IMG/VR virus record: IMGVR_UViG_3300032241_001304
Coordinates: 1 to 34,792 of that record
Direction: 5' to 3' (one strand)
DNA: 34,792 nt
From: a virus
The position numbers were made by a program, and so were the translations under genes. Positions within the stretch are counted from its first letter, which is position 1, and each line of letters starts with the position of its first letter. Positions 2 to 24,773 of the stretch are shown piece after piece. Under the pieces are notes generated by a model. It worked only from the letters and a program-made list of their open reading frames with translations, ran no database searches and was not told the DNA's origin.

Positions 2-2209
2 GGTCCTACAGGAAATACCGGCGCAACAGGTTTGTATGTTTCAACAACAAACTTAGATATTAATGGAAATTTAATTCTAGGTTTAAGTGATAACGTTACA
101 TTCCTTAATGCAGGTAACGCATTAGGTTCTACTGGTGCAACAGGATTTGGTGCTACTGGTGCTACTGGTGTTCAAGGTGCTACTGGACCACAAGGTGCTA
201 CTGGACCACAAGGCGCAACAGGTTTTGGTTTTATTCCTTTAGTTTCTTCTTCTTATTTGGGACAAGTTTATGGTTCAGTTGTTTTTGACGTTGGTGTAAA
301 CTACGGAACCTATGGTTGGCAACCAGGTCAACGTGTAAGAATTATTGCGGATATTTCTGATTATAGTGAAGGTATAATTACAGATTACACCAACAACTTC
401 TTAACAGTAAATGTAGATTATGTTGTTAGTGGCGGCACATATCTTCCTTATCCTAATGCTGGAGGAAACTTTGGTGCTTGGGTTATCACAGTAGCTGGCC
501 AAGTTGGTTCTACAGGTTCACAAGGTTCTACTGGTGCAACAGGATTTGGTGCTACTGGTGCTACTGGTATTGGCGCTTCAGGTGCTACAGGCGCTACTGG
601 ACCACAAGGTGCAACAGGTTATGGTGCGACAGGATCCACAGGACCTACAGGTTCTACAGGTTCTACCGGACCACAAGGTGCAACAGGTTATGGTGCTACT
701 GGTGCCTCAGGTTTAGGTTATGATAATTTAACTTCACAGTCAGTTTTTCAATTAGGTATTGGTAATTTTTCTTTTAGTGTTAATCAAGCTCAAGGAACAA
801 ATGCATGGACAACAAATAATAGAGTTCGTGTATTTTATGATTATGCAAATGATCCAGGTAATACTGAAGGACCAATTACACTTTACGGCGAAGGCAATAT
901 TGTATCTTATACTGGTTTAGATTTAACTGTAAATTTTGATATTATTAGTGGTTCAGGACAATATCAATATTGGAAATTTACTTTAATTGGAATACCAGGC
1001 GCTACTGGTGAAGTTGGTGCAACAGGTTTAACGGGAACACAAGGACCTACAGGTGCAACCGGTTTACAAGGTGATATTGGACAAGTTGGTGCAACCGGTG
1101 CCACCGGCATTGGTGCTACTGGTGCTACAGGTCCACAAGGTCTAGGTGGTGATCCTGGTGGTGCAACAGGAGCTACAGGACTTCCAGGCACCACAGGACC
1201 TATAGGTTTAAGAGGTGCTACTGGTGCAACAGGTGCCGGTTCTACAGGAGCTACAGGTGCAACTGGCGCATTGACACCATGGATAGTAGTATATTCAGAT
1301 TATACTGCAAATAATGGCGACCAAGTAGTTTGTAATACACAAGCAGCATCATTTAAATTAACTTTACCTGCAAATCCAGTACTTGGATATCAAGTTGTTG
1401 TTTTAGACGGTTATAATTTTTCAATTAATAATTTAACTGTATTAAATAACGGTGCAACAATTGAAGGTTATAGTGATATTTTATTACTTGATATTGGAAG
1501 CACATTAACATATTTTACATATGATGGCACAACATGGCAAATGTCAACAACGACAGGACCTGTTGGTGCTACCGGTTTTCAAGGTGCTACCGGTCCTGCA
1601 GGACCAGCAGGTAGTAGTATTAAAGTTACAGGTTATGCAAATAATTCGGCATATTTACCTTCTGTTGGTGATTATACAGGACCATTTTATAATGGACAAA
1701 TTAATGACGGATACATAACTTTGGATAATGGACACCTAAATATATTTACAGGCAGTGCTTGGGTAGATATAGGAAATGTTACAGGTCCAAAAGGTTCTAC
1801 CGGCGCAACAGGGGTTGGTGCAACAGGCGCTTCAGGTGTATATGGTTCTACTGGTGCTACAGGTATAACTCCTGTAATAACATATTATAAGAATTACAAT
1901 TATGTTGGTTTAGTTCCAGGTGGTGTTGGTACAGCAAGATGGTATCCAGACCCAACATCAAATACATATACATTTACTAGCGCATATATAACAGCAGGAA
2001 GTCCGCCGACAGGTGGCGATTTAATACTATCAGTTAAGAAAAACGGTTCAACAGTAATAACAACAGTAACTTGCCAGAATGGAACATATAAGTCATTACC
2101 GGTTTTACTAAATAGTACAATAACACCTGGTGATTATCTAACTGTAGATGTCACGCAAGCCTATGGTGCAGCAGATGCTTCATTAACATTAACATATTTA
2201 CGGAGTTAA
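2..2209 (+). CDS. Collagen-like tail fibre protein (5' partial)
   Basis: The reading frame is open to the left edge: codons 2-31 already encode Gly-X-Y repeats, so the TTG at 32 is not the start and the N-terminus lies outside the window. Five collagen-like Gly-X-Y stretches (about 130-225, 496-720, 994-1275, 1556-1615, 1783-1870), rich in GAT, GPQ and GST triplets, alternate with globular beta-rich segments. The segment at about 1276-1555 resembles a common phage fibre module (NYTANxGD, then LPANP, then YDGTTW). The C-terminal ~110 residues form a non-repetitive, probably beta-sandwich tip. In known phage fibres, collagen repeats trimerise into shafts. The role in host attachment is inferred from this architecture and from the fibre neighbours. 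Y positions of the triplets are mostly Thr, and Pro is mostly at X (GPQ, GPT). The next gene starts 4 bases after the stop. Confidence 0.88.
130..1870 (+). repeat. Interrupted collagen-like Gly-X-Y repeat tracts
   Basis: Nine-base units coding mostly Gly-Ala-Thr, Gly-Pro-Gln and Gly-Ser-Thr recur in five tracts separated by globular domains. The tracts are repeatedly broken by Gly-hydrophobic-Gly steps (GFG, GIG, GYG, GVG, GLG), where one residue of a triplet is missing. X-Pro-Gly sites, the usual collagen hydroxylation target, are few: I see GIPG, GDPG and GLPG, all in the third tract. Confidence 0.9.
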
Positions 2210-7400: not shown

Positions 7401-7539
7401 TCAATTTATTAATGTTCCATTTATGGCATTCAATGCTAAATATGGTACATTCAGTAGAAATATTATAACTTATGCATTAGATATTGAAGCTACAATAACT
7501 GGAACATCAGCGAATAAATATTACCAATTCTGGAGTTAA
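4495..7539 (+). CDS. Modular repeat-rich fibre-like protein
   Basis: This 1014-aa protein is built mostly from imperfect modules. About eight copies of a motif like LYFRNSVAATHNGQSVAGW occur, coded near 4812, 5110, 5345, 5641, 5945, 6243, 6475 and 6775. Each is followed by KAGSTxSSFY, STTKNAQEV and YYAWANKF segments in varying order. The final ~170 residues (from about 7030) are non-repetitive. Composition is polar, rich in Ser, Thr, Asn and aromatic residues, with no transmembrane segment and no enzyme motif, which suggests a beta-solenoid or other fibrous fold. Its place between virion protein genes supports a fibre or adhesin role. Many modules are nearly identical at the DNA level, pointing to recent shuffling inside the gene. 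I do not recognise a named family. The ATG at 4495 lies 7 bases after the previous stop, with AAGGA upstream. Confidence 0.72.
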   Translation: MAANNVYQFANSIIGGITSGSYALSARGSAKYGESIAGGLERAGRTWFASTIQYSSYAKANTNLSRTGGSSFASTIQYASAPHFIPNLRMSGQPVNSVLGMLPDTLYFRNSVAATHNGQSVAGWSPLAANFYKLSTTKNAQEVSGNQSNSFLYAWANKFQNQSKRTSAYKDSNSIYYALGQKFLYFGRTYRPLVVQLGMLPFTLYFRNSVATTHNGQSVAGWNTALAVDFYRISTTKNAQEVGLKDLTNLSYYSLAGKYKFSGFRTSTDIAIEVPFTTSVLYFRNSVAASHDGQSSVDWKAGSTMSSFFRTTTTKNGQELLNSQPVNTYYAWSIKSQLRFKTSQPTQIGVTYFAWVGKTLYNQFRTSSTDTITVRFNSTYIIPRNSVWYNHNGQISLDFKAGSTISSFYLDSPGGGYTLYNAKGVGPGWGNPAFRVNYTRAYAAWAQAPVDKKTNAVSDYHTRYTDHLSRYTNGQLGMLTAQLYFRNSVAATHNGQSVAGWNTALAVDFYPRSITKNNQEVSGNQSNSFLYAWANKFQGGPTKTTSTNQVAVTYYGLVSKFLINFKTSSTDNISVRFNTVAINFRNSVSFTHDGQSSVDFKAGSTISSFYKISTTKNAQEVGLKDLTNLSYYDSVGKFLINFKTSSVDTLSNRFNTVAIYFRNSVSFTHDGQSSVDFKAGSTMSSFFRVTTTKNAQVLLNSQPVNTYYAWATKFQGGGFRTTSTNQIGVTYFAWVGKTLYNSFRTSTDIAIEVPFTTVAIAFRSSVSTHNGESPVDWKAGSTISSFYKISTTKNALEVAGGQAVNTYYAWANKFIVNGLRTISTNQAGTTYFAWANKFIVNGLRTNSITKWLPFSSVNQISKTTAHLSVTSFTFSISTLQVYPYDNYGDFSKSIIIGSMPVAVTPKGFYIDRKWNEPGVQQRYVWSANTAPANSGQTAPNLSHVFFAQIVNVSHLNCFSYRTVSRGIIPQFINVPFMAFNAKYGTFSRNIITYALDIEATITGTSANKYYQFWS
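4810..7030 (+). repeat. Shuffled in-frame DNA modules inside the 1014-aa fibre gene
   Basis: Exact repeats read by eye are 4810-4866 with 5941-5997 (57 bases), 5143-5186 with 5980-6023 (44 bases), and 6919-6958 with 6991-7030 (40 bases, offset 72). All offsets are multiples of three, so the frame is kept. Different modules pair with different partners, giving a mosaic rather than a simple tandem array. Confidence 0.85.
7513..7520 (+). promoter_or_regulatory. Putative T4-type late promoter box AATAAATA
   Basis: This is an exact match to the NATAAATA late box of T4-like phages. It lies 22 bases before the GTG start at 7543, a spacing close to that of the boxes before gp13, gp19 and the gp67-like gene. 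It falls inside the 3' coding end of the 1014-aa gene (codons for Asn-Lys-Tyr), so chance is possible. Confidence 0.4.
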
Positions 7540-11024: not shown

Positions 11025-14000
11025 ATGCTTATAACGAGTTCGTTTCAGGTAACACCTGCTAACTCTCCTAATGACACATCCACGTATTATGCTTCTTTTC
11101 AGCAAATTACTAGTGGCAGAAGTTCTGCCATCTATACTGTTCCAACTATAACATATGTTCCTTCTACAGGAATATTAAGTTTATCTTCAGGTATTAAATT
11201 AATTAGTGGTGACGGCATAACTGCCGTTACTTTTACTAGTAATACCATAACAACGAATACACTCAATGTCATAACCACAGCTGCTAATACAATTACGGTT
11301 AGTAATTTATTTTCAAATATTAGTGTATTAAATGTTACCACGGCCAATACAATTACTGTTGGTTCTTTATACACCAATAATGAAATAGTTAATGTAAGTA
11401 CAGCTAATACGATTACTGTTGGTTCTTTATACACCAATAATGAAATAGTTAATGTAAGTACAGCTAATACGATTATTGTTACTAATTTAATTTCAAATGT
11501 TTCTACATTAAATGTTACATCAGCTAATACAATTACTATTAAAAATTTAAATAGTAATATTAGTACATTGAATGTTACAACCGCTAATACAATTACTGTT
11601 AACAATTTAATTTCAAACGTTTCTACATTAAATATTGCCACAGCAAATGCACTTACTGTAAGTAATTTAAATAGTAATATTAGTGTATTAAATGTTATTA
11701 CATCAAATACCATCAACGTTAATACACTATTTGCAAATGTTGTAACATTTAATGTTATATCTGCAGGTTCTCTTTCTTTACCTACATTTAATGTTGGTAA
11801 TATATTTGCAAACGTTATTACAACAAATACATTTACATCAGCAATAATTAATTCTAATAATATTAATAGTAATATTTTTTCTTCTAATATTATTTTTGCT
11901 AATACTTTTACCGCAAACGTTTCAAATGCAAATTATTTTACTTCTAATAATATATTAGTTAATTTTAATTTAAATTCAAACGTTACCACACTTAATACAA
12001 CAACTGCAAACAATTTAACAGTAAGATTAAATTTAATAAGTACCGCAAATTCAACATTAAACGTTGCTACCGCAAATACTCTTAATGTTAATTCTGGTTT
12101 TAATACCAATTTAGCAAATGCTAATACTTTATTAGTGAGATTAGGACTTACAGGAAATACAATTACTTCCAATACAATCTCAACTAATACTTTCACTTCA
12201 AATATTATTAGTGTAACAACTACATCAACATTAAATGTAGTAACATCAAATACAATTACAACTAATGTAATAACAACAAATACATTATCTGCAAATATTA
12301 TTAGTACAAATAGTATTACATTATCTACAATTTCTGCAAATAATATAACTTCAAATACAATTAATTCAATTACTATTATTGGTAAAACAGCCACAATTAA
12401 TGGCGTTGAATTGTATGCATATACTAATGCAGCATTTGCTTATGCAAACGGCATTTCAGCTCCAATAATTTCTTTGTTTCAAGGCATTACTAATACACAA
12501 AACACCAACACAAATGCTATAAACCAATATGCTCAATCAGCATTTGGATTTGCTAACGGTGCTTTTATACAAGCTAATGCAGCTTTTGCTAATGCTAATA
12601 GCACACTAGTATATTTGTACGGTGTTAGTGCCGGACAAAACAATACTATAAATGCCGTAAACCAATACGCACAATCGGCATTTATAAATGTTAATACTGC
12701 TCTTATTTTAGCTAATGCTTCATTTGCTAATGCTAATACTAGCATCGCTTATCTTTATGGTGTTAATGCATTTCAAAACACCTCAATTAATGGTATTAAC
12801 ATTTACGCACAATCCGCTTTCTTACAAGCAAACTCGGCATATATTCAAGCCAATGCAGCTTTTTCAGCAGCTAACAATGTATTCCCACAAGTACAACCAG
12901 CATTTAATACTGCCAATTTGGCATATTTAAATTCTAACGCAGCTTTCATTCAAGCCAATGCGGCCTTTACTGCTGCTAATAATGTATTTCCGCAAGTACA
13001 ACCAGCATTTAATACCGCCAATGCAGCCTTTATACAAGCTAATGCGGCATTTAGTTTTGCAAATAGTATAAACATTTATTTTCAAGGCGTAAGTAATACA
13101 CTTAATGTTTCTGTTAATGCTGCTTTTATACAAGCTAATGCGGCTTTCGCAAATGCCAATAGTACTTTAATATATCTTTATGGTGTTAATGCTGGACAAA
13201 ATGCTAATATTATAGCTATCAATACTTACGCACAAAACGCATATGCTTATGTTAATGGTGCTTTTATACAAGCCAATGCTTCGTTTGCTAACGCCAATAC
13301 TAGCATATCTTATCTTTATGGTGTTAATGCAACACAGAATGCTAATATTGCTGGAATTAATACATATTCACAAAGTGCTTACGCATTTGTTAATGCAGCT
13401 TTCATTCAAGCCAATGCTTCATTTTCTAATGCTAATACCAGTATATCTTACCTTTACGGAGTTAATGCTAGTCAAAATGCTAATATTACGGCAGTTAATC
13501 AATATTCAACATCATCATATGGTTATACAAATGCAGCTTTCATTCAAGCCAATGCCGCTTTTGCCAATTCAAATACAACAACAGCTTATCTTTATGGTGT
13601 TAATACTGGTCAAAATAATACCATAACGGCAGTTAATCAATATGCAGCTTCAGGATATTCATTAGCTAATACTAAATTCTCCAGTGCAGGCGGTACAATT
13701 AGTGGTGATGTGGTTGTTACAGGTAACTTATTCATTAATGGTTCACAAACATCTATTAATACAAATTCAGTTATCACAAATGATTCTTATTTAATATTAG
13801 CGAATAATAATAATGTATCGGATACATTAGATATTGGTTTTACAGGTGTTGCAAACGTTAATTCTTTATCATCTTCAGGAACATTATATTTTGGTTTGGC
13901 AAGATTAGCAGGAGGTTTATCTGGTTATTCTGCGCCTTGGTTCTTATATAAAAACGTACCTAATGACCCTACAGTTACAAATTTGAGCACACAAGGTGTT

Positions 14001-17000
14001 ATTGATGCCTATCATACTGCAACACTTAGAGCAAATATTACTGGCGGTATAATAACAAACTTGGCCAATACAATTGGTATACTTGATGGTGGTACAAATA
14101 ATTCAACATTTGTTACTAATCAAATTACATTTTATAATGGTAGACAAATAACATCATTAGCAAACGTAGGCACACCAGGAACATATGGTAACGCTAATAC
14201 TATTGTTACTATTACAACAGATGGATATGGTCGAGTATCTGGTAGTTCAAATGTACCAATTTCCATTATTGGTCCACAAGTGCAAGGATTACAAGGTGTA
14301 ACAGATTCACAAAATACAGCTATGGGTGCAATTAACACTTATGCACAATCTGCTTATGCTTATACTAACGCAGCTTTCATACAAGCAAATGCTTCATTTG
14401 CCAATGCTAATACTAGTATTGCTTATCTTTATGGTGTTACAGCTAATATTAATGTAATTACTACCGCAATTAATCAATATGCACAAGGTGCTTATGCTAA
14501 TGCTAATACTAGTGTTGCTTATCTTTATGGTGTTAATGCTGGACAAAATACAACAATAACAGCAGTAAATCAATATGCATCAAGTGGATTTGCACAGGCA
14601 AATGGATGGCAAGGTGTAACTAATACAATTAACATTACAACAAACGCTATTAATAATTATGCTCAATCAGCATATGGATTTGTCAATGCAGCTTTCATAC
14701 AAGCAAATTCTTCATTTGCCAATGCTAATACTAGTATTGCGTATTTGTATGGTGTTGATGCGGGTATTAATGTGGTTACTACTGCAATTAATCAATTTGT
14801 GTCTACAGCATATGCTAACGCTAATGCAGCTTTTATACAAGCTAATGCGGCTTTTGCTAACGCTAATACCACAACAACTTACATGTATGGTGTTAACGCT
14901 ACACAAAATACTAATATAACGGCAGTTAATAATTTTGTACAAGGTTCATATGCCAATGCTAATACTAGTATTGCTTATCTTTATGGTGTTACAGCTAATA
15001 TTAATGTAATTACTACCGCAATTAATCAATATGCACAAGGTGCTTATGCTAATGCTAATACTAGTATTGCTTATCTTTATGGTGTTAATGCTGGTATTAA
15101 TGCAACAGTTGTTGCCGTAAATCAATACGCTCAACAAGCATTTGGTGTTGCTAATGCAATCAATCAATATGCACAAGGTGCTTATGGTTCACAAAACACA
15201 TTTATTACTTTCCAAGCAGGTGTTGATGCTCAACAAAATTCTAATGCCATATATCTTTTAAATTATGCACAACAAGCATATGCTTGGGCAAATACAATCA
15301 ACATATATTTTTCTGGTGTAAATAATTATGCCAATAATTATGCCAATGCAATTAACACTTATGCAACATCAGCATATTCTTATGCAAATGCAACTTATGC
15401 TTATTATCAAGGCGTTGACAATACACAAAATACTAATATTGCTTCTGTAAATAATTATGCGGCTGGTGCTTTCCAATTAGCAAATTCAACTAATACCACA
15501 CTTAATAGTTATAGTGCAGGTTCAGCAAGTACTGTCAATGCAGTTAATCAATATGCACAATCTGCTTTCTTACAAGCAAACTCGGCATATATTCAAGCCA
15601 ATGCAGCTTTTAATACTGCTAATGCAGGATATAATTCAGCGGTAGCTGGATATTTAAATTCTAATGCGGCTTTCATACAAGCCAATGCGGCTTTTGCTAA
15701 CGCTAATAGTAGTATTGCTTATTTGTATGGCGTTAATGCTACAACTAATAATAATGTTATTCAAGTGAATAATTTTGCACAAGGTGCTTATGCCAATGCA
15801 AATACAACAACAGCTTATTTGTATGGTGTTAATGCAACACAAAATACAAATATTGCAGCTGCTACTGCCACATTAGGACAAAATTTTGCATATGCAAATG
15901 CAGCTTATGCTTCTGCTAATTTGGTAGCTAATCAAGTATTTTCAGTATATAATGTTAATAGTGTTTCATTGACAGCAGTGACAAATACATTTGGTGTTTT
16001 ATCTTCAACCAATCTTGGAACAGCAACTCCGTTTTATGAATATGCCGCAGCAAATACTGCTGGTTTATTGGGTGCAGCTTCGTTAACCGCTTCAACATCT
16101 GTTACAGCAGGTACAAATGATGATGGTTATTGGACATTAAGTTTGCCTTGGAGTTGGATGTACCCAACAGATACAAATGGTACAACATCAAACGTATCAA
16201 CAATTTATGTTGGTACAAATGGTTATGTCACGTTATCTTCAGGTTCAGCAGTATCGTCTGCTGTTAGTGCATCTAACCCAGCACAACCAAAATTATTATT
16301 TGCCCCACAAGATTTATCAACACAAAGAATATATTATGGTATTGAAGGTTCTTCACCAAACAGAAGTTATCGTGTAAGGGTTGAAGCTTCTTATCCAGCT
16401 ACACCAGCACAAGCACTAGGAAGTCCTAACGTAGTTGTTGAATTGACTTGGTTTGAAAATGACCACACAAGAGTTGATGTTGTTTACGGAACAAATGCAG
16501 CGTCAAGTTATAATATTATTACTCCCGGAATGTATAGTGCTTCAGCTGCATTATATACATTTACAGGAGCGGGTTACGTTGGCCAAGGTTATCGTTTTGG
16601 TGCAAACTTAACCGGTTTTGCAAATACTTATGGTTATGTTATTGCATATGGCAATACAATGAATATTACTGCAAGTACAGCAAACGGAATTAATTTACTT
16701 GCCAATAATATTACGAGAAGTATTGATATTGGTTTAAGAACAACAGGTATAACTTCTTATGGTACAACTGTAACTTACGGTGGTACATCAGGAGGCAATG
16801 GTTATCAAGTTCCTTCTTTAACAATAGATGCTTTTGGACGTATATTGTCCGCACAAAATAATGCGGTCAATTTTTCAGTTTCATTATTTGGAACTACCGG
16901 TTCAGCAACATTAGCAAATAGCCAGTCATTGACTATTACATCTTCAAATACATATATTGTTACCTCTGCATTAACTACTTCAGGTGGTGTTAATCAAACA

Positions 17001-17456
17001 TTTACAATACAACCACAATTATCGGGTGTATCTTACGGAACATATAAAACTCCAGATATGATTGTGGATACTTATGGTCGTGTTACGCAAATTTCTAGTA
17101 ACACATCTTTAAGAACAAGTTTAAATCCAGTTATTCAATCAGTAACAACAGCAACAAGTGGAGTAGTTACACCTACTGCCGGTAGTTGTGACCAATTTGA
17201 AGTTACTGCATTAGACGTTAATACTACATTTGCAATTCCAACAACAGGAACATCTTTTGCTGATGGTCAAAAATTAATACTTCGCATAAAAGATAATGGT
17301 TTAGCACGAACATTAATTTGGACAACAAGTCTAGGTGGTTATAGACAAGTAGGTGCATCATTACCAGGCACCACTATTCCAGGCAAACCTTTTTATGCAG
17401 CGTGCATATATAATTCACAAGACGGCTATTGGGACGTAGTAGCTGTTTCGCAATAA
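11025..17456 (+). CDS. Giant repeat tail fibre protein (2143 aa)
   Basis: An AGAGGA ribosome-binding site precedes the ATG. Residues ~60-470 carry a 20-residue repeat around NTITVxNL and STLNVTTA, probably beta-structured. Residues ~470-880 and ~1085-1635 are arrays of a 46-residue unit (AFIQANAAFANAN, then IAYLYGVNA, then INQYAQSAY) with heptad-like Ala/aromatic spacing, which suggests a trimeric coiled-coil shaft. Between them lies a globular block (~883-1085) with SGDVVVTGNLFINGS and TDGYGRVSG motifs typical of phage fibres. Residues ~1635-1870 hold a beta domain (LPWSWMYPT, GSSPNRSYRV, WFENDHTRVD) shared with the next gene. The C-terminal ~110 residues (TSGVVTPTAGSCDQF, then LRIKDNGLARTLIWT, then YNSQDGYWDVVAVSQ) match a common phage fibre end domain. 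It is therefore very likely a long tail fibre carrying receptor-binding parts. Confidence 0.85.
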   Translation: MLITSSFQVTPANSPNDTSTYYASFQQITSGRSSAIYTVPTITYVPSTGILSLSSGIKLISGDGITAVTFTSNTITTNTLNVITTAANTITVSNLFSNISVLNVTTANTITVGSLYTNNEIVNVSTANTITVGSLYTNNEIVNVSTANTIIVTNLISNVSTLNVTSANTITIKNLNSNISTLNVTTANTITVNNLISNVSTLNIATANALTVSNLNSNISVLNVITSNTINVNTLFANVVTFNVISAGSLSLPTFNVGNIFANVITTNTFTSAIINSNNINSNIFSSNIIFANTFTANVSNANYFTSNNILVNFNLNSNVTTLNTTTANNLTVRLNLISTANSTLNVATANTLNVNSGFNTNLANANTLLVRLGLTGNTITSNTISTNTFTSNIISVTTTSTLNVVTSNTITTNVITTNTLSANIISTNSITLSTISANNITSNTINSITIIGKTATINGVELYAYTNAAFAYANGISAPIISLFQGITNTQNTNTNAINQYAQSAFGFANGAFIQANAAFANANSTLVYLYGVSAGQNNTINAVNQYAQSAFINVNTALILANASFANANTSIAYLYGVNAFQNTSINGINIYAQSAFLQANSAYIQANAAFSAANNVFPQVQPAFNTANLAYLNSNAAFIQANAAFTAANNVFPQVQPAFNTANAAFIQANAAFSFANSINIYFQGVSNTLNVSVNAAFIQANAAFANANSTLIYLYGVNAGQNANIIAINTYAQNAYAYVNGAFIQANASFANANTSISYLYGVNATQNANIAGINTYSQSAYAFVNAAFIQANASFSNANTSISYLYGVNASQNANITAVNQYSTSSYGYTNAAFIQANAAFANSNTTTAYLYGVNTGQNNTITAVNQYAASGYSLANTKFSSAGGTISGDVVVTGNLFINGSQTSINTNSVITNDSYLILANNNNVSDTLDIGFTGVANVNSLSSSGTLYFGLARLAGGLSGYSAPWFLYKNVPNDPTVTNLSTQGVIDAYHTATLRANITGGIITNLANTIGILDGGTNNSTFVTNQITFYNGRQITSLANVGTPGTYGNANTIVTITTDGYGRVSGSSNVPISIIGPQVQGLQGVTDSQNTAMGAINTYAQSAYAYTNAAFIQANASFANANTSIAYLYGVTANINVITTAINQYAQGAYANANTSVAYLYGVNAGQNTTITAVNQYASSGFAQANGWQGVTNTINITTNAINNYAQSAYGFVNAAFIQANSSFANANTSIAYLYGVDAGINVVTTAINQFVSTAYANANAAFIQANAAFANANTTTTYMYGVNATQNTNITAVNNFVQGSYANANTSIAYLYGVTANINVITTAINQYAQGAYANANTSIAYLYGVNAGINATVVAVNQYAQQAFGVANAINQYAQGAYGSQNTFITFQAGVDAQQNSNAIYLLNYAQQAYAWANTINIYFSGVNNYANNYANAINTYATSAYSYANATYAYYQGVDNTQNTNIASVNNYAAGAFQLANSTNTTLNSYSAGSASTVNAVNQYAQSAFLQANSAYIQANAAFNTANAGYNSAVAGYLNSNAAFIQANAAFANANSSIAYLYGVNATTNNNVIQVNNFAQGAYANANTTTAYLYGVNATQNTNIAAATATLGQNFAYANAAYASANLVANQVFSVYNVNSVSLTAVTNTFGVLSSTNLGTATPFYEYAAANTAGLLGAASLTASTSVTAGTNDDGYWTLSLPWSWMYPTDTNGTTSNVSTIYVGTNGYVTLSSGSAVSSAVSASNPAQPKLLFAPQDLSTQRIYYGIEGSSPNRSYRVRVEASYPATPAQALGSPNVVVELTWFENDHTRVDVVYGTNAASSYNIITPGMYSASAALYTFTGAGYVGQGYRFGANLTGFANTYGYVIAYGNTMNITASTANGINLLANNITRSIDIGLRTTGITSYGTTVTYGGTSGGNGYQVPSLTIDAFGRILSAQNNAVNFSVSLFGTTGSATLANSQSLTITSSNTYIVTSALTTSGGVNQTFTIQPQLSGVSYGTYKTPDMIVDTYGRVTQISSNTSLRTSLNPVIQSVTTATSGVVTPTAGSCDQFEVTALDVNTTFAIPTTGTSFADGQKLILRIKDNGLARTLIWTTSLGGYRQVGASLPGTTIPGKPFYAACIYNSQDGYWDVVAVSQ
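11352..11475 (+). repeat. 60-base tandem repeat, exact
   Basis: Bases 11352-11415 equal 11412-11475, a 64-base identity at period 60, giving two identical 20-residue units (VGSLYTNNEIVNVSTANTI). Degenerate units of the same 60-base period run on both sides from about 11280 to 11720. Confidence 0.92.
14399..14513 (+). repeat. Exact 115-base direct repeat, copy 1
   Basis: Bases 14399-14513 are identical to 14951-15065, with offset 552, four times 138. After one mismatch the match continues for about 28 bases. This looks like a recent duplication within the fibre gene. Confidence 0.9.
14951..15065 (+). repeat. Exact 115-base direct repeat, copy 2
   Basis: This is the partner of 14399-14513. 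It codes for part of the IAYLYGV and INQYAQGAYANANTS segments of the 46-residue unit. Confidence 0.9.
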
Positions 17457-17480: not shown

Positions 17481-20400
17481 ATGGCAAATACAACTACAAT
17501 AGTTCTTACAACTTCAAATAATGGCACTTCTTGGTTTGTTCCTGATGATTGGAACAACCAATATAATACAATCTATTTGTGGGGTGCAGGTGGTGGAGGC
17601 GCAGGTTCATTTGATGAAACTGTTTCAGGTTATCAACTTGAAGCCACAGGAGGTTCAGGTGGCGGCGGTGGCGGTTTTACAAAACTTCAAAATCTTAAAT
17701 TAGTACCTAAACAACAAGTCACTTTTACTGTTGGTGTTGGTGGTTATGCCGGAGCATCTATTGGTTATATTGGAGGAGGAAATGCCAATGGTGGTGATGG
17801 TGGTAATACACTATTCTTCTATTCAACGTATAAAGCCGGTGGTGGTCAAGGTGGTAGGTCTATTATTCCGGTCAATTATACAATTGGTGCTGCAAATAGT
17901 ACTCCAGGAGGGTTAGGAGGATATGGTGCATCTTATAGCGGAGGAAATGGAGGCGCTTCAGGATTAGCATTATTATTTGGTCATACAGGAGCCGGCGGTG
18001 GCGGAGGTGCAGCTGGCGCTTTAGGTCCTGGGGGTTATGGTGGTAACGGCAATACAGCATCAGGATTACAAGTAGGAGGCGGAGGAGGTGGCGCAAGTGG
18101 TGGTAGTAATGGTTACGATGCCGAGTCCGTAAAGGTCGGTGTTGGTGGTGTTGGCGGCACTTCAGGACCAAATACGATTAATATATTATACAGTTATTAT
18201 CCTGGAGGTTCAAATGGGACTTCAGGATTATATGGTAGTGGTGGTGCCGGCGGTGGTTTAGTTTATGGTGGCGGTATTGGAAGTTCTGATTTAGAGATTG
18301 CAAATACTTTTGGTTCTGGTTCAGGTGGTGGCGGAGGAGGTCTAACTGCAAATAGTGCCGGTTGGGGAGGATTCCCAGGAGGTGGCGGTGGTGGGGCAGC
18401 TTTCATTGATGCTTCAACAATAAACATTGCAGGTAATGGTGCTAATGGTCTTATCGTTATTCAATATGTTCCTGTTGTTTCACAAAACTCTTATGTATTT
18501 TCATCAACAACACCAAACACAATATGGACTGTTCCTGATGATTGGAATGCTACAGGAAGTAAAATAGAATTATTTGGTGGTGGAGGCGGAGGCACAGGCG
18601 TTATAGATTTACAAAACTCAACATCACCCGTATACTCATCACAAATTAAAGCTTCTAACGGTGGCGGTGGTGGAGGTTATTTACGAATAAACAATTTAAA
18701 TTTACTTCCAGGTCAAAATGTACAAATAACTATTGGTTCTGGTGGTCGAGGAGGAAACGGACTTTATATTTCTCCTACAGTTGGTTCGGTGTATACACAA
18801 TCAAATCTTTCTAGTAATGGTGCGGCTGGCGGCAATACAAGTATTCTTTTTAGAAAAACATTTGGTTATGAAGGTAACTCAGCGTTTACAGCAAGAGGCG
18901 CCAATTCTGCAAATATCTATGCGACAAATACAACAATAGGTTCAGTTTTTTCCATAACTGGTTCAGGTGGTAACTACGATTACTCACTTTCTTCTTCTTA
19001 TTCTGAAACTGCAACCATAACAGGAAATTTTGGCGGCAATGGTGGCGTAGGTTTATTGACCACAACTATTGGTTCAAATTGGATTGCTTTAGGTGGTAGT
19101 GGTGGAGGAGGTGCAGGTAACTTTTATGGCCAAGGAAGTAATGGTGCAAGTGCAACATTAGCTGCAAATGGTGCAATAGGTGGAGGTAGTGGTAATTTAG
19201 TACAAACACAAAATAGTTATAGTTTTGGTCCAGGTTCAGGAGGTAATGCCGACTCTCCAGGTTATAATGGTTTTGATATTGCATTTACAAGTGTAGGTGC
19301 AGGTGGAGGTGGTGGCGGCGCAAACGCATACACAAACACAGCAGGTTATGGTGGTTACGCAGGAGGTGGCGGTGGTGGTGCAGGGTCAAACGGAACATCA
19401 GGATTACCTGGGAATTTTTATGGTGCAAACGGGTCAAATGGATTAGTTGCAATCTCTTATACAAATACTCCTGCACCACAAATTATTACATTAACATCCG
19501 GCAATTCAATTATTTTACCAAATGATATGACTTCATATAATGAAATTCATTTGATTGGTGGTGGAGGTGGCGGTTCAGGTAATTTAACATATTACGGTCC
19601 AGCAAATACATATGTTTCATTAGCCAATTCAATTATTGGTTGGCAAATAATTAATACTACTGCTAATGCAGCTGCAAGAAATGAACTTGCTACAACATAC
19701 GGTCAATTTGGGTCTGCATTTCCAAGTAGTATTACGATACCTTGGGGTTGGACATATCCAACAAGTCAAACCGGTTCGGCTTCACGACAAACAGTATATC
19801 TTAATCAACAAGGAGCCGTAAGTCCTGGGTCAAACGTATCATCTTATACTTATGGTGCTTTTAGTAATGCATTTTTATTTGGTTCACAATATTATAGTAC
19901 AACAGGCAATCTATATTGGGCTAATTATACTTATTCTTCCGGTAAAGTTGCTAATTATGGAATATTTGGAACAACACCAAATAGAACATATGAAGTTTTA
20001 TGGCAACAAGTAAATGGTTATAATCAAACCAACTCAGGCCAATATTCCTTTCAAAATTTTTATGTTCGTTTTTTTGAAAATGATCCAAGTAGAGTTGAAT
20101 TTATAATACCTCTTGTATCACAATCGTTATCAGAGTGTTTAGGATGGTGGTTTGCAGGAACATCTCCTGCAACCGGAACAAATATTATTAGTGGTTCAGC
20201 AAGCAGTGAAAATTATGGTGCTGTTGCTAACAACACATCTTTTACATTAATAGGACTTAGAGATACACAGGCAAAAATTTGGACTAACGGTACCAATGAT
20301 GGACTAGGAATTGCAGGTGCAGGAGGCGGTGGTGGAGGTTATACAAGACTTTTTAATGTTCCTTTATTTCCTAATTCATTAATCAGTTACAACATTGGTA

Positions 20401-21362
20401 ATACTGGTGCAGGAGGATTATCTTATAATTTTGCAAATGGTTCAACTGTATCAATTACTGGAATTATTAGTGCTAATGGTTCACCTGGAGGTAATACAAC
20501 GTTTTTATCGAATACGTATTCTGCAAATGGTGGCGCAGGAGGAATACTTGCGGCTGCAAACGTAGGATTAAATGGTTCACCTCCTATTGTTGTAGCATAT
20601 TCTGGAGGTATAGGAGGAACAGGAAGTAACTCTAGTGGAGGCAATGGAAATACAAACCTTATTGTTTCATCAACATATGGAACAAAAATGCAAAGTTATT
20701 CGAATGTTTCACCGATAATTATGGGTGGCGGAGGCGGTGGTGGTGCAGGAGGACAAAATGGTCCAGGTGCAAATGGAGCACCAGGTTCTTACGCAAACGG
20801 TTCAAGTTACAACACAACTGTTGCATGGGGAACAAATTTTCCTAATGCAGTATATGGTGGAGGTGGTGGTGCAAGTTCTGGTGGCACAGCAGCAAATACA
20901 TTTAACGGAGGAAATAGTTACTTCGTATTAAATGGCGGAGGTGATGCAAACACAAGTGGAGGTTCTATTGTTGCAAATGCAATTAATGGAATTCAAGGAG
21001 GTGGTGGCGCCGGAGGTTGGCAAGGACCAGGAGGTTCGGGAAGTTATTATACTAGAGAAATTACTTTTGCTGGCGCTGGTTCTGGTTCAGGTGGAGGTGG
21101 TGCAGGTAATAACTTGGTTGGAACAATATATGCAGGCGGACCAGGAGGTACTTATGGTGGTGGCGGAGGAGGTAATGATTTAGTTGGATTACCTACGATA
21201 AGCAATACAGCAGGATATTTAACAACAGAAGGTTCGGGACTACAAGCAGCTAATGGCGCACAAGGAGTTATCATTATTAAATATTGGCAAACTCCACCAA
21301 ACACAATTAATCCCACAAATTTAACCACAGCTGGTGGTGCTGGAATGTTTATGTTATTTTAA
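17481..21362 (+). CDS. Glycine-rich tail fibre/adhesin protein (1293 aa)
   Basis: Three related modules each begin with a strand such as TVPDDWNATGSKIELFGGGG and continue into runs of poly-Gly and Gly-Gly-Ala: about residues 1-328, 330-660 and 668-1293. Such Gly-rich modules occur in phage adhesins and tail fibres, where poly-Gly helices can pack into a receptor-binding layer. That fold is inference here. The third module is split by a ~220-residue beta domain (residues ~712-935; IPWGWTYPT, GTTPNRTYEVLWQ, FFENDPSRVEF) homologous to one in the upstream 2143-aa fibre. The protein ends in a hydrophobic GGAGMFMLF tail. No good ribosome-binding site precedes ATG 17481; the leader (17457-17480) is AT-rich with a short palindrome. 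Translation may depend on coupling to the upstream fibre gene. Confidence 0.8.
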   Translation: MANTTTIVLTTSNNGTSWFVPDDWNNQYNTIYLWGAGGGGAGSFDETVSGYQLEATGGSGGGGGGFTKLQNLKLVPKQQVTFTVGVGGYAGASIGYIGGGNANGGDGGNTLFFYSTYKAGGGQGGRSIIPVNYTIGAANSTPGGLGGYGASYSGGNGGASGLALLFGHTGAGGGGGAAGALGPGGYGGNGNTASGLQVGGGGGGASGGSNGYDAESVKVGVGGVGGTSGPNTINILYSYYPGGSNGTSGLYGSGGAGGGLVYGGGIGSSDLEIANTFGSGSGGGGGGLTANSAGWGGFPGGGGGGAAFIDASTINIAGNGANGLIVIQYVPVVSQNSYVFSSTTPNTIWTVPDDWNATGSKIELFGGGGGGTGVIDLQNSTSPVYSSQIKASNGGGGGGYLRINNLNLLPGQNVQITIGSGGRGGNGLYISPTVGSVYTQSNLSSNGAAGGNTSILFRKTFGYEGNSAFTARGANSANIYATNTTIGSVFSITGSGGNYDYSLSSSYSETATITGNFGGNGGVGLLTTTIGSNWIALGGSGGGGAGNFYGQGSNGASATLAANGAIGGGSGNLVQTQNSYSFGPGSGGNADSPGYNGFDIAFTSVGAGGGGGGANAYTNTAGYGGYAGGGGGGAGSNGTSGLPGNFYGANGSNGLVAISYTNTPAPQIITLTSGNSIILPNDMTSYNEIHLIGGGGGGSGNLTYYGPANTYVSLANSIIGWQIINTTANAAARNELATTYGQFGSAFPSSITIPWGWTYPTSQTGSASRQTVYLNQQGAVSPGSNVSSYTYGAFSNAFLFGSQYYSTTGNLYWANYTYSSGKVANYGIFGTTPNRTYEVLWQQVNGYNQTNSGQYSFQNFYVRFFENDPSRVEFIIPLVSQSLSECLGWWFAGTSPATGTNIISGSASSENYGAVANNTSFTLIGLRDTQAKIWTNGTNDGLGIAGAGGGGGGYTRLFNVPLFPNSLISYNIGNTGAGGLSYNFANGSTVSITGIISANGSPGGNTTFLSNTYSANGGAGGILAAANVGLNGSPPIVVAYSGGIGGTGSNSSGGNGNTNLIVSSTYGTKMQSYSNVSPIIMGGGGGGGAGGQNGPGANGAPGSYANGSSYNTTVAWGTNFPNAVYGGGGGASSGGTAANTFNGGNSYFVLNGGGDANTSGGSIVANAINGIQGGGGAGGWQGPGGSGSYYTREITFAGAGSGSGGGGAGNNLVGTIYAGGPGGTYGGGGGGNDLVGLPTISNTAGYLTTEGSGLQAANGAQGVIIIKYWQTPPNTINPTNLTTAGGAGMFMLF

Positions 21363-21371
21363 AGGAATATT

Positions 21372-21947
21372 ATGAAAGGTGATTGGTGTTATTTTAATCA
21401 AAGTTTTACAAAAGAAGAATGTAAAAATATTTTAGATTTAGGTTTAAAAGTTGAACCGGAAAAAGAAGCTAGACTAGGTGTTAACGGTGACTATAAATCT
21501 GACGACTCCGTTCGTAGAAGTAAAATAAGATTTATCTATTCTAATTGGCCAGAATATGAATTTCTTTTTGATAAAATTTGGAAATTAGGTATTCAAGCAA
21601 ATCGTGAATGGTTTAATTTTCATATAACAAATTTATCTTTTATACAATTAGCAGAATATGATGCATCTTATCAAGGAGAATATAAAAGACACCAAGATGT
21701 TTTTTGGTTAAACGGCGACAATAAATATCACCGTAAGTTATCATGTATTATTCAATTAAGTGACCCCAATGATTATGAAGGAGGAAATTTCGAAATGTGG
21801 GTAAGTGAACAACCTAATAAAGTAGAAATTCGTAATCAAGGTTCAGTTATTTTTCTTCCATCTTTTGTAGAACATCAAGCTAATCCTGTAACTAAAGGAA
21901 CAAGATATAGTATTGCTGTTTGGTTTGAAGGACCAAAATGGGTATGA
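21372..21947 (+). CDS. 2-oxoglutarate/Fe(II)-dependent dioxygenase, prolyl 4-hydroxylase-like
   Basis: This 191-aa enzyme has the double-stranded beta-helix signature of the family. The iron-binding HxD is His107-Gln-Asp109 (KRHQDVF), the distal His is His168 (VEHQANPV), and the 2-oxoglutarate-binding Arg is Arg178 (GTRYSIAVW), ten residues on. YEGGNFEMW at 135-143 and the preceding CIIQLSDPNDY are typical core strands. Members couple oxidative decarboxylation of 2-oxoglutarate to hydroxylation of a substrate, often Pro, Asn, Asp or Lys in proteins. Size and motifs fit a soluble single-domain enzyme. The gene follows the Gly-rich fibre by 9 bases (AAAGGA ribosome-binding site) and overlaps the glycosyltransferase gene. 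Similar oxygenases are common in T4-like cyanophages, with uncertain substrates. A fibre-protein substrate is inferred from context. Confidence 0.88.
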   Translation: MKGDWCYFNQSFTKEECKNILDLGLKVEPEKEARLGVNGDYKSDDSVRRSKIRFIYSNWPEYEFLFDKIWKLGIQANREWFNFHITNLSFIQLAEYDASYQGEYKRHQDVFWLNGDNKYHRKLSCIIQLSDPNDYEGGNFEMWVSEQPNKVEIRNQGSVIFLPSFVEHQANPVTKGTRYSIAVWFEGPKWV

Positions 21948-23092
21948 GATTTCATATATTAGGGTTACCACACACAGTATCATCAAAAGAATTTAACGCT
22001 TGTGCTTATACACAAAAAGTAGTTAAATTTGCCAAAATGATGACCGCAAGAGGACATACTGTTATTCACTATGGCCATGAAGAATCCAATTTAGATTGTA
22101 CAGAACACGTTACAGTTTTATCATCAGATGATTGGAAAAAATCTTATGGTGACCATGATTGGCGAAAACATTTTTTTAAATTTAATACAAACGACCATGC
22201 ATACCAAACATTTTATAAAAACGCTATCGAGGAAGTCGGCAAAAGAAAACAGAAGAATGATTTTATATTACCTTTTTGGGGTTCTGGCGTTAGGCCTGTT
22301 TGTGACGCTCATGCTGATTTAATTTGTGTTGAACCAGGAATTGGTTATGCTGGTGGTCATTGGGCAAGATGGAAAATATTTGAGTCGTATGCTATCTATC
22401 ATGCATATTATGGTTTAGATTCTGTTGGTTCATGTAAACAAGATTGGTATGATGCAGTAATACCAAACTATTTTGACCCTGACGATTTTACTTATTCAGA
22501 AGAAAAAGATGATTATTTTTTATTTTTAGGTAGAGTTTATGAAGGTAAGGGTGTAAACATTGCTATTCAAGCAACAGAAAAAGTTGGTGCCAAATTAATT
22601 GTTGCTGGACAAAATAGTCTTAAAGATATGGGTTACACAGAAACCCCGCCTCATGTTACAGAAATTGGTTATGCGGATGTAGAAAAAAGAAAACAACTTA
22701 TGTCAAAAGCTAAAGGTGCGTTTATTGCATCTTTGTATACTGAACCTTTTGGTGGTGTTCAAATGGAATGTTTATTTTCTGGCACCCCAACTATTACCAC
22801 CGATTGGGGTTCTTTTGTAGAAAACAATATTCATGGAGTAACAGGATATAGATGTAAAACTTTTGAACAGTTTACTTGGGCAGTAAAAAATATTGATAAA
22901 ATTAAACCATCAAATTGTAGAGATTGGGCTATAAACAACTTTTCATTGGAAAAAGTTGCAATAATGTATGAAGAATACTTCCAATCGGTATTAAATGTTT
23001 ATAATGGCCAAGGATGGTATGAAGTTAATGATTCCAGACAAAATTTAGATTATATGAAGAAAGAATATCCTGGTATATTATTGAATAAATAG
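21938..23092 (+). CDS. Glycosyltransferase, GT4-like (GT-B fold)
   Basis: The 384-aa protein has an N-terminal half starting with a strand-loop RFHILGLPHTV and a helix with an ARGHTVIHYGH pattern. The C-terminal GT-B domain contains FLFLGRVYEGKGVNIAIQA near residue 188 and the nucleotide-sugar-binding EPFGGVQME (E-x7-E) near 268, followed by GTPTITTDWGSFVE. This is typical of family GT4 retaining transferases, which move a sugar from a nucleotide donor. Donor and acceptor cannot be read from sequence. The gene overlaps the dioxygenase by 10 bases at ATG 21938, with AAGGA 5 bases upstream; a second ATG at 21944 would give an ATGA overlap but an 11-base spacing. This overlap implies translational coupling of the two enzymes. 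Candidate acceptors are fibre proteins, host surface glycans or DNA; fibres are favoured by position. Confidence 0.87.
   Translation: MGMRFHILGLPHTVSSKEFNACAYTQKVVKFAKMMTARGHTVIHYGHEESNLDCTEHVTVLSSDDWKKSYGDHDWRKHFFKFNTNDHAYQTFYKNAIEEVGKRKQKNDFILPFWGSGVRPVCDAHADLICVEPGIGYAGGHWARWKIFESYAIYHAYYGLDSVGSCKQDWYDAVIPNYFDPDDFTYSEEKDDYFLFLGRVYEGKGVNIAIQATEKVGAKLIVAGQNSLKDMGYTETPPHVTEIGYADVEKRKQLMSKAKGAFIASLYTEPFGGVQMECLFSGTPTITTDWGSFVENNIHGVTGYRCKTFEQFTWAVKNIDKIKPSNCRDWAINNFSLEKVAIMYEEYFQSVLNVYNGQGWYEVNDSRQNLDYMKKEYPGILLNK
23084..23091 (+). promoter_or_regulatory. T4-type late promoter box AATAAATA before gp13
   Basis: Exact NATAAATA, overlapping the TAG stop of the glycosyltransferase gene and 19 bases before the gp13 ATG. 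It would start a transcript for the neck gene block. Confidence 0.65.
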
Positions 23093-23110: not shown

Positions 23111-23890
23111 ATGGCATCAATTCCAATTAACGGCAGGAACGATTTTAAAAATTATTGTAAAAAACGTTTAGGTTGGCCCGTCATTGACATTAATGTTGAT
23201 GATGACCAAGTAGAGGACCGTATAGATGATGCTTTGCAATATTGGCAAGATTATCACTTTGATGGGTTACAAAAAGTCTATTATATCAAAGCGTTATTAC
23301 AATCCGATATTAACCAAAGATACTTAGATTTAAGTAATTCTGAAGATGCTGATGGTAATCCTATGGAAATTGTTGGTATTACTCGTATATTTCCAGTCCA
23401 AGATTCACAGGCAAATGTCAATATGTTTGACCTTAGATATCAATTACGTTTAAATGAGTTGTACGACTTTACCTCCGCATCATACATCAACTATACATTA
23501 ACACAACAACATCTAAGGTCTCTAGAAATTATGTTCTCTGGAGAAGTTCCTATTCGTTTCCAAAGACACATGCAAAGATTATATATTGATTGGAATTGGG
23601 GCGACCAAGAAGCACCAATTGGTACAGTTGTTGTGGCAGAAGCTTATGCAGCTATTAATCCTGATGTATACAGTAAAGTTTGGAATGACCGTTGGTTGAA
23701 AGAATATGCTACCGCTTTAATTAAAAGAAGTTGGGGCAATAACATGAAAAAATTTGGCGGACTTCAATTACCTGGTGGTGTAACACTTAATGGTAAAGAA
23801 ACGTATGACGAAGCTGTAGAAGAAATTGAACGTTTAGAAAAAGAAATGGAAATGAATTACGGCGCTCCGCTAGAATTTTTCATGAACTAA
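23111..23890 (+). CDS. 13: Neck protein gp13-like (head completion)
   Basis: The 259-aa protein matches the gp13 neck family of T4-like phages. An N-terminal FKNYCKKRLGWPVIDINV is followed by an acidic VEDRIDDALQYWQDYHFDG, a central beta region, and a C-terminal KVWNDRWLKEYATALIKRSWGNNMKKFGG, ending in an acidic helix. gp13 closes the packaged head together with gp14 and forms the connector with the tail. T4 gp13 is somewhat longer (309 aa); the shorter length agrees with cyanophage-type versions. A GGAG ribosome-binding site precedes ATG 23111, and a late promoter box overlaps the upstream stop. gp14 follows after one base, as in T4 order. Confidence 0.9.
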   Translation: MASIPINGRNDFKNYCKKRLGWPVIDINVDDDQVEDRIDDALQYWQDYHFDGLQKVYYIKALLQSDINQRYLDLSNSEDADGNPMEIVGITRIFPVQDSQANVNMFDLRYQLRLNELYDFTSASYINYTLTQQHLRSLEIMFSGEVPIRFQRHMQRLYIDWNWGDQEAPIGTVVVAEAYAAINPDVYSKVWNDRWLKEYATALIKRSWGNNMKKFGGLQLPGGVTLNGKETYDEAVEEIERLEKEMEMNYGAPLEFFMN

Positions 23891-23891
23891 T

Positions 23892-24773
23892 ATGCCAGTT
23901 AATCACTATTTTAATAATTACGGTTCTTTACAAGAACAACGGGTCATCGAGGACTTAATTGTAGAATCAATTAAGATTATGGGTTTTGATGCCTATTATT
24001 TACCAAACAATAATGACCAAGCTCGTGATTTATTATTTGGTGAAGATCCAGTTAAAAAATTTCAAAATGCATTTCCTTTGGAAATGTATCTTTCTAACTC
24101 TTTGGAATATGCTGGTGAAAAAGAATTCTTTTCTAAGTTTGGTTTAGAAATTAAAAACAATGTTAATGTAATTGTTTCTAAAAGGTCCTTTTCACTAAGA
24201 GTACCACAAAATATTTTTACTAGACCCCGTGAAGGTGATTTAATTTATGTTCCTTTTTTAAATGGTACTGGTGAATTATATGAAATTAAATTTACAGACC
24301 AAACAAAAGACTTCTTCATGTTAGGAAGAAAAGTGCCTTACTTCTACGAATTACAATTAGAGAAGTTTAAGTATTCACAAGAATTAATATCTACTGGTAT
24401 TGCAGACATTGATGCTGTTGTGACAGATTCAGCATACACATTACACCTTAATACCGGCGGAGGTTCAGGAACATATGTCACAACAGAAATCGTATATCAA
24501 TCCTTGGACGGAACATATGCAAACGCAAATTGCTCTGCTATTGTTCAATCCTGGATTCCTTCTTCTAACACACTTTCTGTGTCCACTATTACCGGTGAGT
24601 TTATTGATGGTAGGACAATTATTGGAGGATTAAGTAATGCATGTTACACATTAACTACATTTGATCCATTAAATTCTCCTGCAAATAAAGAAAATTATGA
24701 CAATCAATACATTAATACACAAGGTAATGCTATTACAGATTATAGTCAAATAAATCCACTTGGTAGTATATAA
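23892..24773 (+). CDS. 14: Neck protein gp14-like with extra C-terminal domain
   Basis: Residues 1 to about 165 match gp14 neck proteins: NHYFNNYGSLQEQRVIEDLI, IMGFDAYYLPN, FEAGEK-like LEYAGEKEFFSKFG and RPREGDLIYVPF. gp14 acts with gp13 in head completion and head-tail joining. The protein has 293 residues against 256 in T4. The additional residues ~187-257 form a small beta domain (GTYVTTEIVYQS, then ITGEFIDGRTIIG, then NACYTLTTF) whose equivalent is seen at the C-terminus of the next gene, gp15. The gene starts one base after gp13 with no clear ribosome-binding site, so translation is probably coupled. It ends in a one-base TAATG overlap with gp15. Confidence 0.9.
   Translation: MPVNHYFNNYGSLQEQRVIEDLIVESIKIMGFDAYYLPNNNDQARDLLFGEDPVKKFQNAFPLEMYLSNSLEYAGEKEFFSKFGLEIKNNVNVIVSKRSFSLRVPQNIFTRPREGDLIYVPFLNGTGELYEIKFTDQTKDFFMLGRKVPYFYELQLEKFKYSQELISTGIADIDAVVTDSAYTLHLNTGGGSGTYVTTEIVYQSLDGTYANANCSAIVQSWIPSSNTLSVSTITGEFIDGRTIIGGLSNACYTLTTFDPLNSPANKENYDNQYINTQGNAITDYSQINPLGSI

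Follow-up and report, generated by a model that had tools for sequence, protein, structure and literature searches.

Coupled oxygenase and GT4 glycosyltransferase genes in a T4-like cyanophage-type genome: a probable system for modifying collagen-like phage fibres

Introduction

Hydroxylation and glycosylation of collagen are regarded as something that animals do, with a few exceptions (mimivirus, Bacillus spores). In animals, LH3/PLOD3 and COLGALT1 bring a hydroxylase and a glycosyltransferase to bear on a Gly-X-Y protein; in Dictyostelium, a soluble prolyl hydroxylase works with a glycosyltransferase on a cytosolic protein, Skp1, the sugar being placed on the hydroxyproline itself. Here we describe two overlapping plus-strand genes, a 2-oxoglutarate (2OG)/Fe(II) oxygenase (OX, 21372..21947) and a GT4-type glycosyltransferase (GT, 21944..23092), on a T4-like cyanophage-type genome fragment of 34,792 nucleotides, namely positions 1 to 34,792 of IMG/VR virus record IMGVR_UViG_3300032241_001304 (the window). 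It is likely that they form a translationally coupled late-gene pair modifying the phage's own Gly-X-Y fibre proteins before virion assembly. The carrier viruses would then probably mature their own "collagen" chemically, much as animals do.

Compared with the animal lysyl system, OX is prolyl-hydroxylase-like and GT is a GT4 rather than a GT25 or GT_PLOD enzyme; the two are separate, coupled genes, and no secretory pathway is involved. In sister cassettes of the S-CAM9 type, a single protein beside a Gly-X-Lys fibre unites GT25, GT_PLOD and lysyl-hydroxylase-like domains. The Skp1 system, with its sugar on hydroxyproline, differs from the phages in that GT and OX occur independently in the latter. 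Mimivirus likewise encodes collagen together with its own hydroxylase and glycosyltransferase, L230 being a bifunctional collagen lysyl hydroxylase/glucosyltransferase and R699 a galactosylhydroxylysyl glucosyltransferase (PMC9546862). However, it is a eukaryotic giant virus whose lysine-directed enzymes have other glycosyltransferase folds. In Bacillus anthracis, the P4H enzyme acts on prolines at both X and Y of model peptides, and the collagen-like BclA is glycosylated (PMC8968730), a precedent for the marks proposed here, although these belong to the spore coat and not to a virion, and the genes are uncoupled from phage fibres.

According to a paper on phage collagens, neither bacteria nor viruses possess the required prolyl hydroxylases (PMC3368898). 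Cyanophage 2OG oxygenases have been discussed as metabolic reprogrammers, the function of none having been specifically investigated (PMC9602691), and the families PHROG_61 (2OG-Fe(II) oxygenases) and PHROG_3408 (glycosyltransferases), which include OX and GT, are catalogued as morons or auxiliary metabolic genes with no fibre role assigned. In the open-access literature, subscription literature lying outside the search, we found no report of phage collagen-modifying cassettes and nothing relevant on a phage glycosyltransferase acting on the virion or on a phage PLOD.

Results

The 191-residue OX product matches the Pfam domain 2OG-FeII_Oxy_3 (PF13640, E 5e-16). Its facial triad, H107-x-D109 ... 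H168, is invariant across 17 relatives, as is R178, and the HxD..H..R.S pattern is found in 129/129 members of the OX subfamily, which bears out the sequence-only reading of an intact 2OG/Fe(II) oxygenase with an HxD...H...R motif. The AlphaFold model (pLDDT 90) gave, as top fold matches in the PDB, P. putida prolyl 4-hydroxylase (P4H; with EF-Tu), Dictyostelium PHD (6t8m), PHD2 and a viral collagen prolyl hydroxylase, the entries being 4iw3, 6t8m, 5l9b and 5c5t. By sequence, OX lies nearest to PKHD-type enzymes, followed by P3H1 and P4H, and its profile also reaches prolyl 3-hydroxylase 1 (6e-9), whose site in collagen is the X position. On its triad, 2OG-binding Arg and predicted fold, OX is assigned to the prolyl-hydroxylase (P4H/PKHD) fold class of 2OG/Fe(II) oxygenases, and may act as a collagen prolyl hydroxylase on Pro in Gly-X-Y.

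The GT product carries a Glycos_transf_1 domain (PF00534, E 2e-15; PHROG_3408, E 2e-187) with an EX7E motif (E269/E277) invariant in relatives. In the predicted structure (pLDDT 84), the nearest folds are UDP-glucose-dependent GT4 enzymes. Domain, motif and modelled GT-B fold are those of a retaining GT4 glycosyltransferase, which may here act on protein (collagen). Neither window enzyme matches a GT25 or GT_PLOD domain in Pfam, so that animal-type collagen lysyl glycosylation is not indicated for this pair. The overlap of OX with a GT4-type gene, already noticed from the sequence, measures 10 bases by the longest ORF (from 21938, 384 aa) and 4 bases by the start at 21944; we favour the latter because MRFH is conserved and an ATGA sequence lies at the OX stop. 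A 4-base ATGA overlap is typical of translational coupling, and in most of the OX-GT relatives listed the two genes likewise share 10 or 4 bases.

Since no relative was found in 84,980 species genomes, GT looks virus-specific, and a cellular origin was rejected. Fusions of GT4 to a C-terminal SAM methyltransferase were seen at L049:10001-11680, L063:1954-3750, L068:8183-9955 and others (L numbers denote loci), in two kinds (Methyltransf_23 or FkbM). They account for 10/44 rows of the GT tree, on which the fusion state changed at least 9 times. We also considered a GT-oxygenase fusion for the 560-aa GTs, but their ~180 extra residues are these methyltransferases and not an oxygenase.

Relatives of GT were sought among phages by tblastn against 50,697 phage records. 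S-CAM7 and ACG-2014f, both large cyanomyoviruses, carry it at ~70% identity, and the cultured phage S-CBWM1 at 31-33%. In ACG-2014f a collagen triple helix protein comes first, followed by two small genes, GT, an overlapping 2OG oxygenase, a small gene and a tail fibre; S-CAM7 follows the order collagen ... GT ... 2OG oxygenase ... tail fibre, with two collagen-rich genes immediately 5' of GT; and in S-CBWM1, GT overlaps by 4 bases a tail-fibre gene with 63 Gly-X-Y triplets. OX occurs at 45-48% identity in S-CAM9, S-PRM1 and S-8S5x, where a large tail-fibre gene containing Gly-X-Y runs stands two genes 5' of it. Between OX and GT, at L009:9444-10004, L013:3346-3906 and L088:10567-11133, lies a protein of 186-188 aa that bears a DIGGGP motif; it is methyltransferase-like by eye, and the L088 copy has no Pfam match. 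A separate 2OG oxygenase subfamily stands after Gly-rich (about 24-38% Gly) fibres, just before gp13, in L161:7664-8251, L167 and L170.

A survey of co-occurrence across related phages, which the sequence-only reading had asked for, showed that both genes travel with collagen-like genes. We grouped 80 IMG/VR loci with GT, together with the phage matches, into 40 clusters at 90% identity. GT has an immediate collagen-like neighbour (a gene with at least 10 Gly-X-Y triplets), upstream or downstream and usually 30-50 bases apart, in 20/40 clusters, as against 25/949 other genes (2.6%) on seven large GT-bearing contigs (binomial p 2e-21, kinship ignored) and gp13 in 1/79 loci. Over the GT tree, such adjacency was gained or lost at least 12 times. 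For the OX subfamily, a collagen-like gene lies within four genes in 34/48 clusters, and collagen precedes gp13 in 8/8 loci with OX and in 4/31 without. Long Gly-X-Y DNA runs are present in 17/17 GT-bearing records >40 kb compared with 5/12 GT-less gp13 records >40 kb, one of them weakly (exact p 5e-4); for this whole-record pattern, the read-backwards control equals the pattern itself and so has no control value.

Neighbourhoods of OX were read in an OX-centred scan and a gp13 scan. Five kinds of genes follow it: GT4; gp13 alone; DUF6445 with GT2; OX2-GT2-GT2/methyltransferase; and a 613-aa, lysyl-type protein. The last combines a GT25 (procollagen galactosyltransferase-like), a GT_PLOD (LH3-like glucosyltransferase) and a lysyl-hydroxylase-like domain. 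It adjoins OX in S-CAM9 and S-PRM1, and matches procollagen galactosyltransferase 1 (1e-19), LH3 (5e-33) and the lysyl hydroxylase/glycosyltransferase entry 6ax6 (1e-8). In CRP-6, a Roseobacter phage of a different kind (45 kb), a relative is encoded two genes downstream of a collagen-like tail fibre rich in GAKGQKGE, and no OX was found in the stretch read around it. Such ~600-aa proteins, annotated as 'hypothetical' or '2OG oxygenase', stand beside Lys-Y collagen-like tail fibres; their loci are L004:8555-10396 (S-CAM9), L005, L006, L229, L233, L236, L237 and L223:5926-7695 (CRP-6). In another cassette, L168:5652-9944, tandem collagen-like genes precede OX, a further 2OG oxygenase, a GT2/DUF6445 protein and a GT2-methyltransferase, and gp13 comes after these; its like occurs in L121, L163, L166, L299, L301, L306 and L316, with collagens Gln-rich at Y.

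Fibre composition was compared with enzyme content in 56 locus clusters that have a collagen-like gene close by, the p values ignoring shared ancestry. Lys at Y makes up 0.18-0.59 of triplets in the 6 clusters that carry the lysyl-type protein and does not exceed 0.04 in the remaining 50 (p 7e-7). Where OX is present, Pro at X has a median of 0.49, and where it is absent 0.18 (p 2e-5); the corresponding values within GT loci are 0.51 and 0.16 (p 0.002). For Thr at Y the figures are 0.63 in the presence of GT and 0.36 in its absence (p 2.5e-4), and Gln at Y accompanies the GT2B module. We rejected GC content as the cause of the Pro-X difference, GC being lower in OX loci.

The window itself is an atypical member of the family, in which the pair has lost its usual direct neighbourhood with collagen genes. 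Its T4-like structural block (Pfam, PHROG) begins with fibre genes and continues with the neck proteins (gp13-like, gp14-like) and a tail-sheath stabiliser. OX follows a plus-strand Gly-rich fibre (17481..21362, 1293 aa, 25% Gly) by 9 bases, with the fibre stop at 21362 and the OX start at 21372, a spacing that had been read correctly before. GT is followed on the same strand by the gp13-like head-tail adaptor (23111..23890; PHROG_211, 3e-39) and the gp14-like protein (23892..24773; Pfam T4_neck-protein, 1e-28; PHROG_460). Collagen-like genes lie between GT and gp13 in L009 (the nearest GT relative), L013 and L088, and none does so in the window. The number of promoters and terminators in the block was not above that in shuffled sequence.

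The only collagen-like candidate substrate within the window is the product of 2..2209 (plus strand), whose frame is open from base 2 and which is cut by the left edge of the record in mid-collagen. As described from the sequence, it opens the plus-strand block with Gly-X-Thr and Gly-Pro-Gln triplets: we counted 73 Gly-X-Y triplets, interrupted by globular segments and mostly GAT, GST, GPQ and GPT, giving many Thr-Y and few Pro-X sites. The Gly-rich fibre shows no enrichment of Pro-Gly and no visible substrate signature, and was dropped as a candidate; a tblastn search with it as query gave no matches, which carries no weight because the low-complexity filter was on. An Asn-rich repetitive fibre (11025..17456, plus strand, 2143 aa) lies before it, and a related fibre sequence precedes OX-GT in the relative L015. 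Strong internal repeats occur in the fibres 4495-7539 and 11025-17456 (FRNSVAATHNGQS units; ANAAFIQANAAF units).

Discussion

We infer substrate residues, donor sugar and effect from sequence. OX would most likely hydroxylate Pro at X in Gly-Pro-Y triplets, and GT would transfer a sugar, probably glucose from UDP-glucose, onto Thr at Y. Two parallel marks, hydroxyproline at X and O-glycosyl-Thr at Y, appear likeliest because loci with GT and no OX have Thr-rich, Pro-poor collagens as neighbours, and loci with OX and no GT have Pro-rich ones. A relay on one residue, hydroxylation followed by glycosylation, in line with the animal-collagen parallel drawn earlier, is not favoured, since GT and OX often occur separately. 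Together, the marks may make the triple helix more stable or more soluble, and may change or shield the surface of the fibre. The lysyl-type sister cassettes would likeliest produce animal-like glycosyl-hydroxylysine, and the GT-methyltransferase fusions hint at methylated sugars. In the window, our best guess is that the pair would act in trans on the 2-2209 product, and perhaps also on collagen genes lying off the fragment. The earlier proposal that the enzymes decorate one or more fibres is thus upheld at the level of the family, by collagen adjacency and by composition that tracks the enzymes; it gains nothing from the nearby Gly-rich fibre, which lacks a signature, nor from the window pair, which lacks a collagen neighbour.

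Several observations weigh against modification of collagen-like fibres by OX and GT. The solved structures closest to OX in sequence are PKHD/PiuC-type hydroxylases, and the basal GT relatives L072, L073, L076, L078 and L080 have no collagen gene nearby. In the window, the collagen gene lies 8 genes and 19 kb from OX-GT (the adjacency is present in many relatives), its Pro at X is only 0.16, and the pair occupies an outlier position between the Gly-rich fibre and gp13; the sequence-only reading had rightly cautioned both about this distance and about the rarity of X-Pro-Gly. The link between Pro and OX rests on few independent events and is weak after correction for ancestry: the gp13 tree offers 3 well-supported independent OX contrasts, Pro going 2.5 as predicted and 0.1 opposite (sign test p 0.25), and the GT tree a single supported one, consistent in direction and not significant. 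Collagens Pro-rich at X occur without visible OX in L143, L158 and S-CBWM1 (likewise L003), and the collagen at L164:14512-15120 has abundant Lys at Y although a lysyl-type enzyme was not found in that 17.9-kb record. As E. coli prophage collagens are also GPK-rich (PMC3368898), Lys at Y alone does not imply such an enzyme.

The cyanophage and pelagiphage literature would read these genes as auxiliary metabolic ones, with GT altering host surface glycans (superinfection exclusion) and the oxygenase tuning host 2-oxoglutarate/nitrogen metabolism. 2OG oxygenases are discussed there with host nitrogen/2OG status (PMC3037559; PMC9602691), glycosyltransferases beside tail-fibre genes have been interpreted as O-chain modifiers (PMC7029224), and the basal GT group outside collagen neighbourhoods would fit. 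We nevertheless consider this role unlikely, for it leaves unexplained why collagen genes repeatedly adjoin these genes directly, on either flank and in several lineages of phage, why Lys-Y and Pro-X vary with the type of enzyme, and why GT can be replaced by a protein that has procollagen galactosyl/glucosyltransferase and lysyl hydroxylase domains. Alternatively, the enzymes could have other targets and hitch-hike in fibre cassettes that are mobile and are reshuffled along with adhesin genes, adjacency then reflecting a recombination hot spot before gp13. That stretch is indeed hypervariable, and OX-GT stands beside gp13 with no adjoining collagen gene in the window and in L276/L286. However, gp13 at the same hot spot has a collagen neighbour in just 1/79 loci, ACG-2014f and S-CAM7 retain the association elsewhere, after baseplate genes, and hitch-hiking does not predict compositional covariation; we rate it as improbable as the metabolic role.

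The 9-base spacing in the window could instead mean that OX and GT modify the adjacent Gly-rich (or Asn-rich) fibre and not the collagen-like one, and other 2OG oxygenases do follow Gly-rich fibres in L161, L167 and L170. Those oxygenases fall outside the OX subfamily (29-31% identity), though, most OX-GT relatives have no Gly-rich fibre at the corresponding place, and the window's own lacks Pro-Gly enrichment, so that we give this target a low probability. Phage glycosyltransferases can also glycosylate DNA, and that of phage HY126 is a distant fold match to GT (TM 0.58-0.61), as would suit an oxygenase and glycosyltransferase that hypermodify phage bases. With OX folding with protein prolyl hydroxylases and not with nucleic-acid oxygenases, the genes lying within a structural block, and the nearest GT folds being UDP-glucose GT4 enzymes that act on small molecules or sugars, DNA hypermodification is very improbable.

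Beyond modification of Gly-X-Y fibres by the OX-GT pair, we see about even chances that tailed phages run an exchangeable collagen-maturation toolkit, in which a core OX is joined by one of several glycosylation modules and the Gly-X-Y sequence of the fibre co-evolves to supply the residue used. These modules would be GT4, alone or fused to a methyltransferase, sets of GT2, or the galactosyltransferase-glucosyltransferase-lysyl hydroxylase in one polypeptide. The cultured carriers S-CAM7, S-CAM9, S-PRM1, S-CBWM1 and CRP-6 make modification of the fibres directly testable. If it is correct, small soluble collagen hydroxylases and glycosyltransferases would become available for recombinant collagen, phage fibres would carry a chemical layer invisible in DNA, and a large, puzzling class of cyanophage genes would gain a function. 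Were the toolkit also real, many 'auxiliary metabolic' 2OG oxygenases and glycosyltransferases of cyanophages would be, in part, virion-maturation enzymes.
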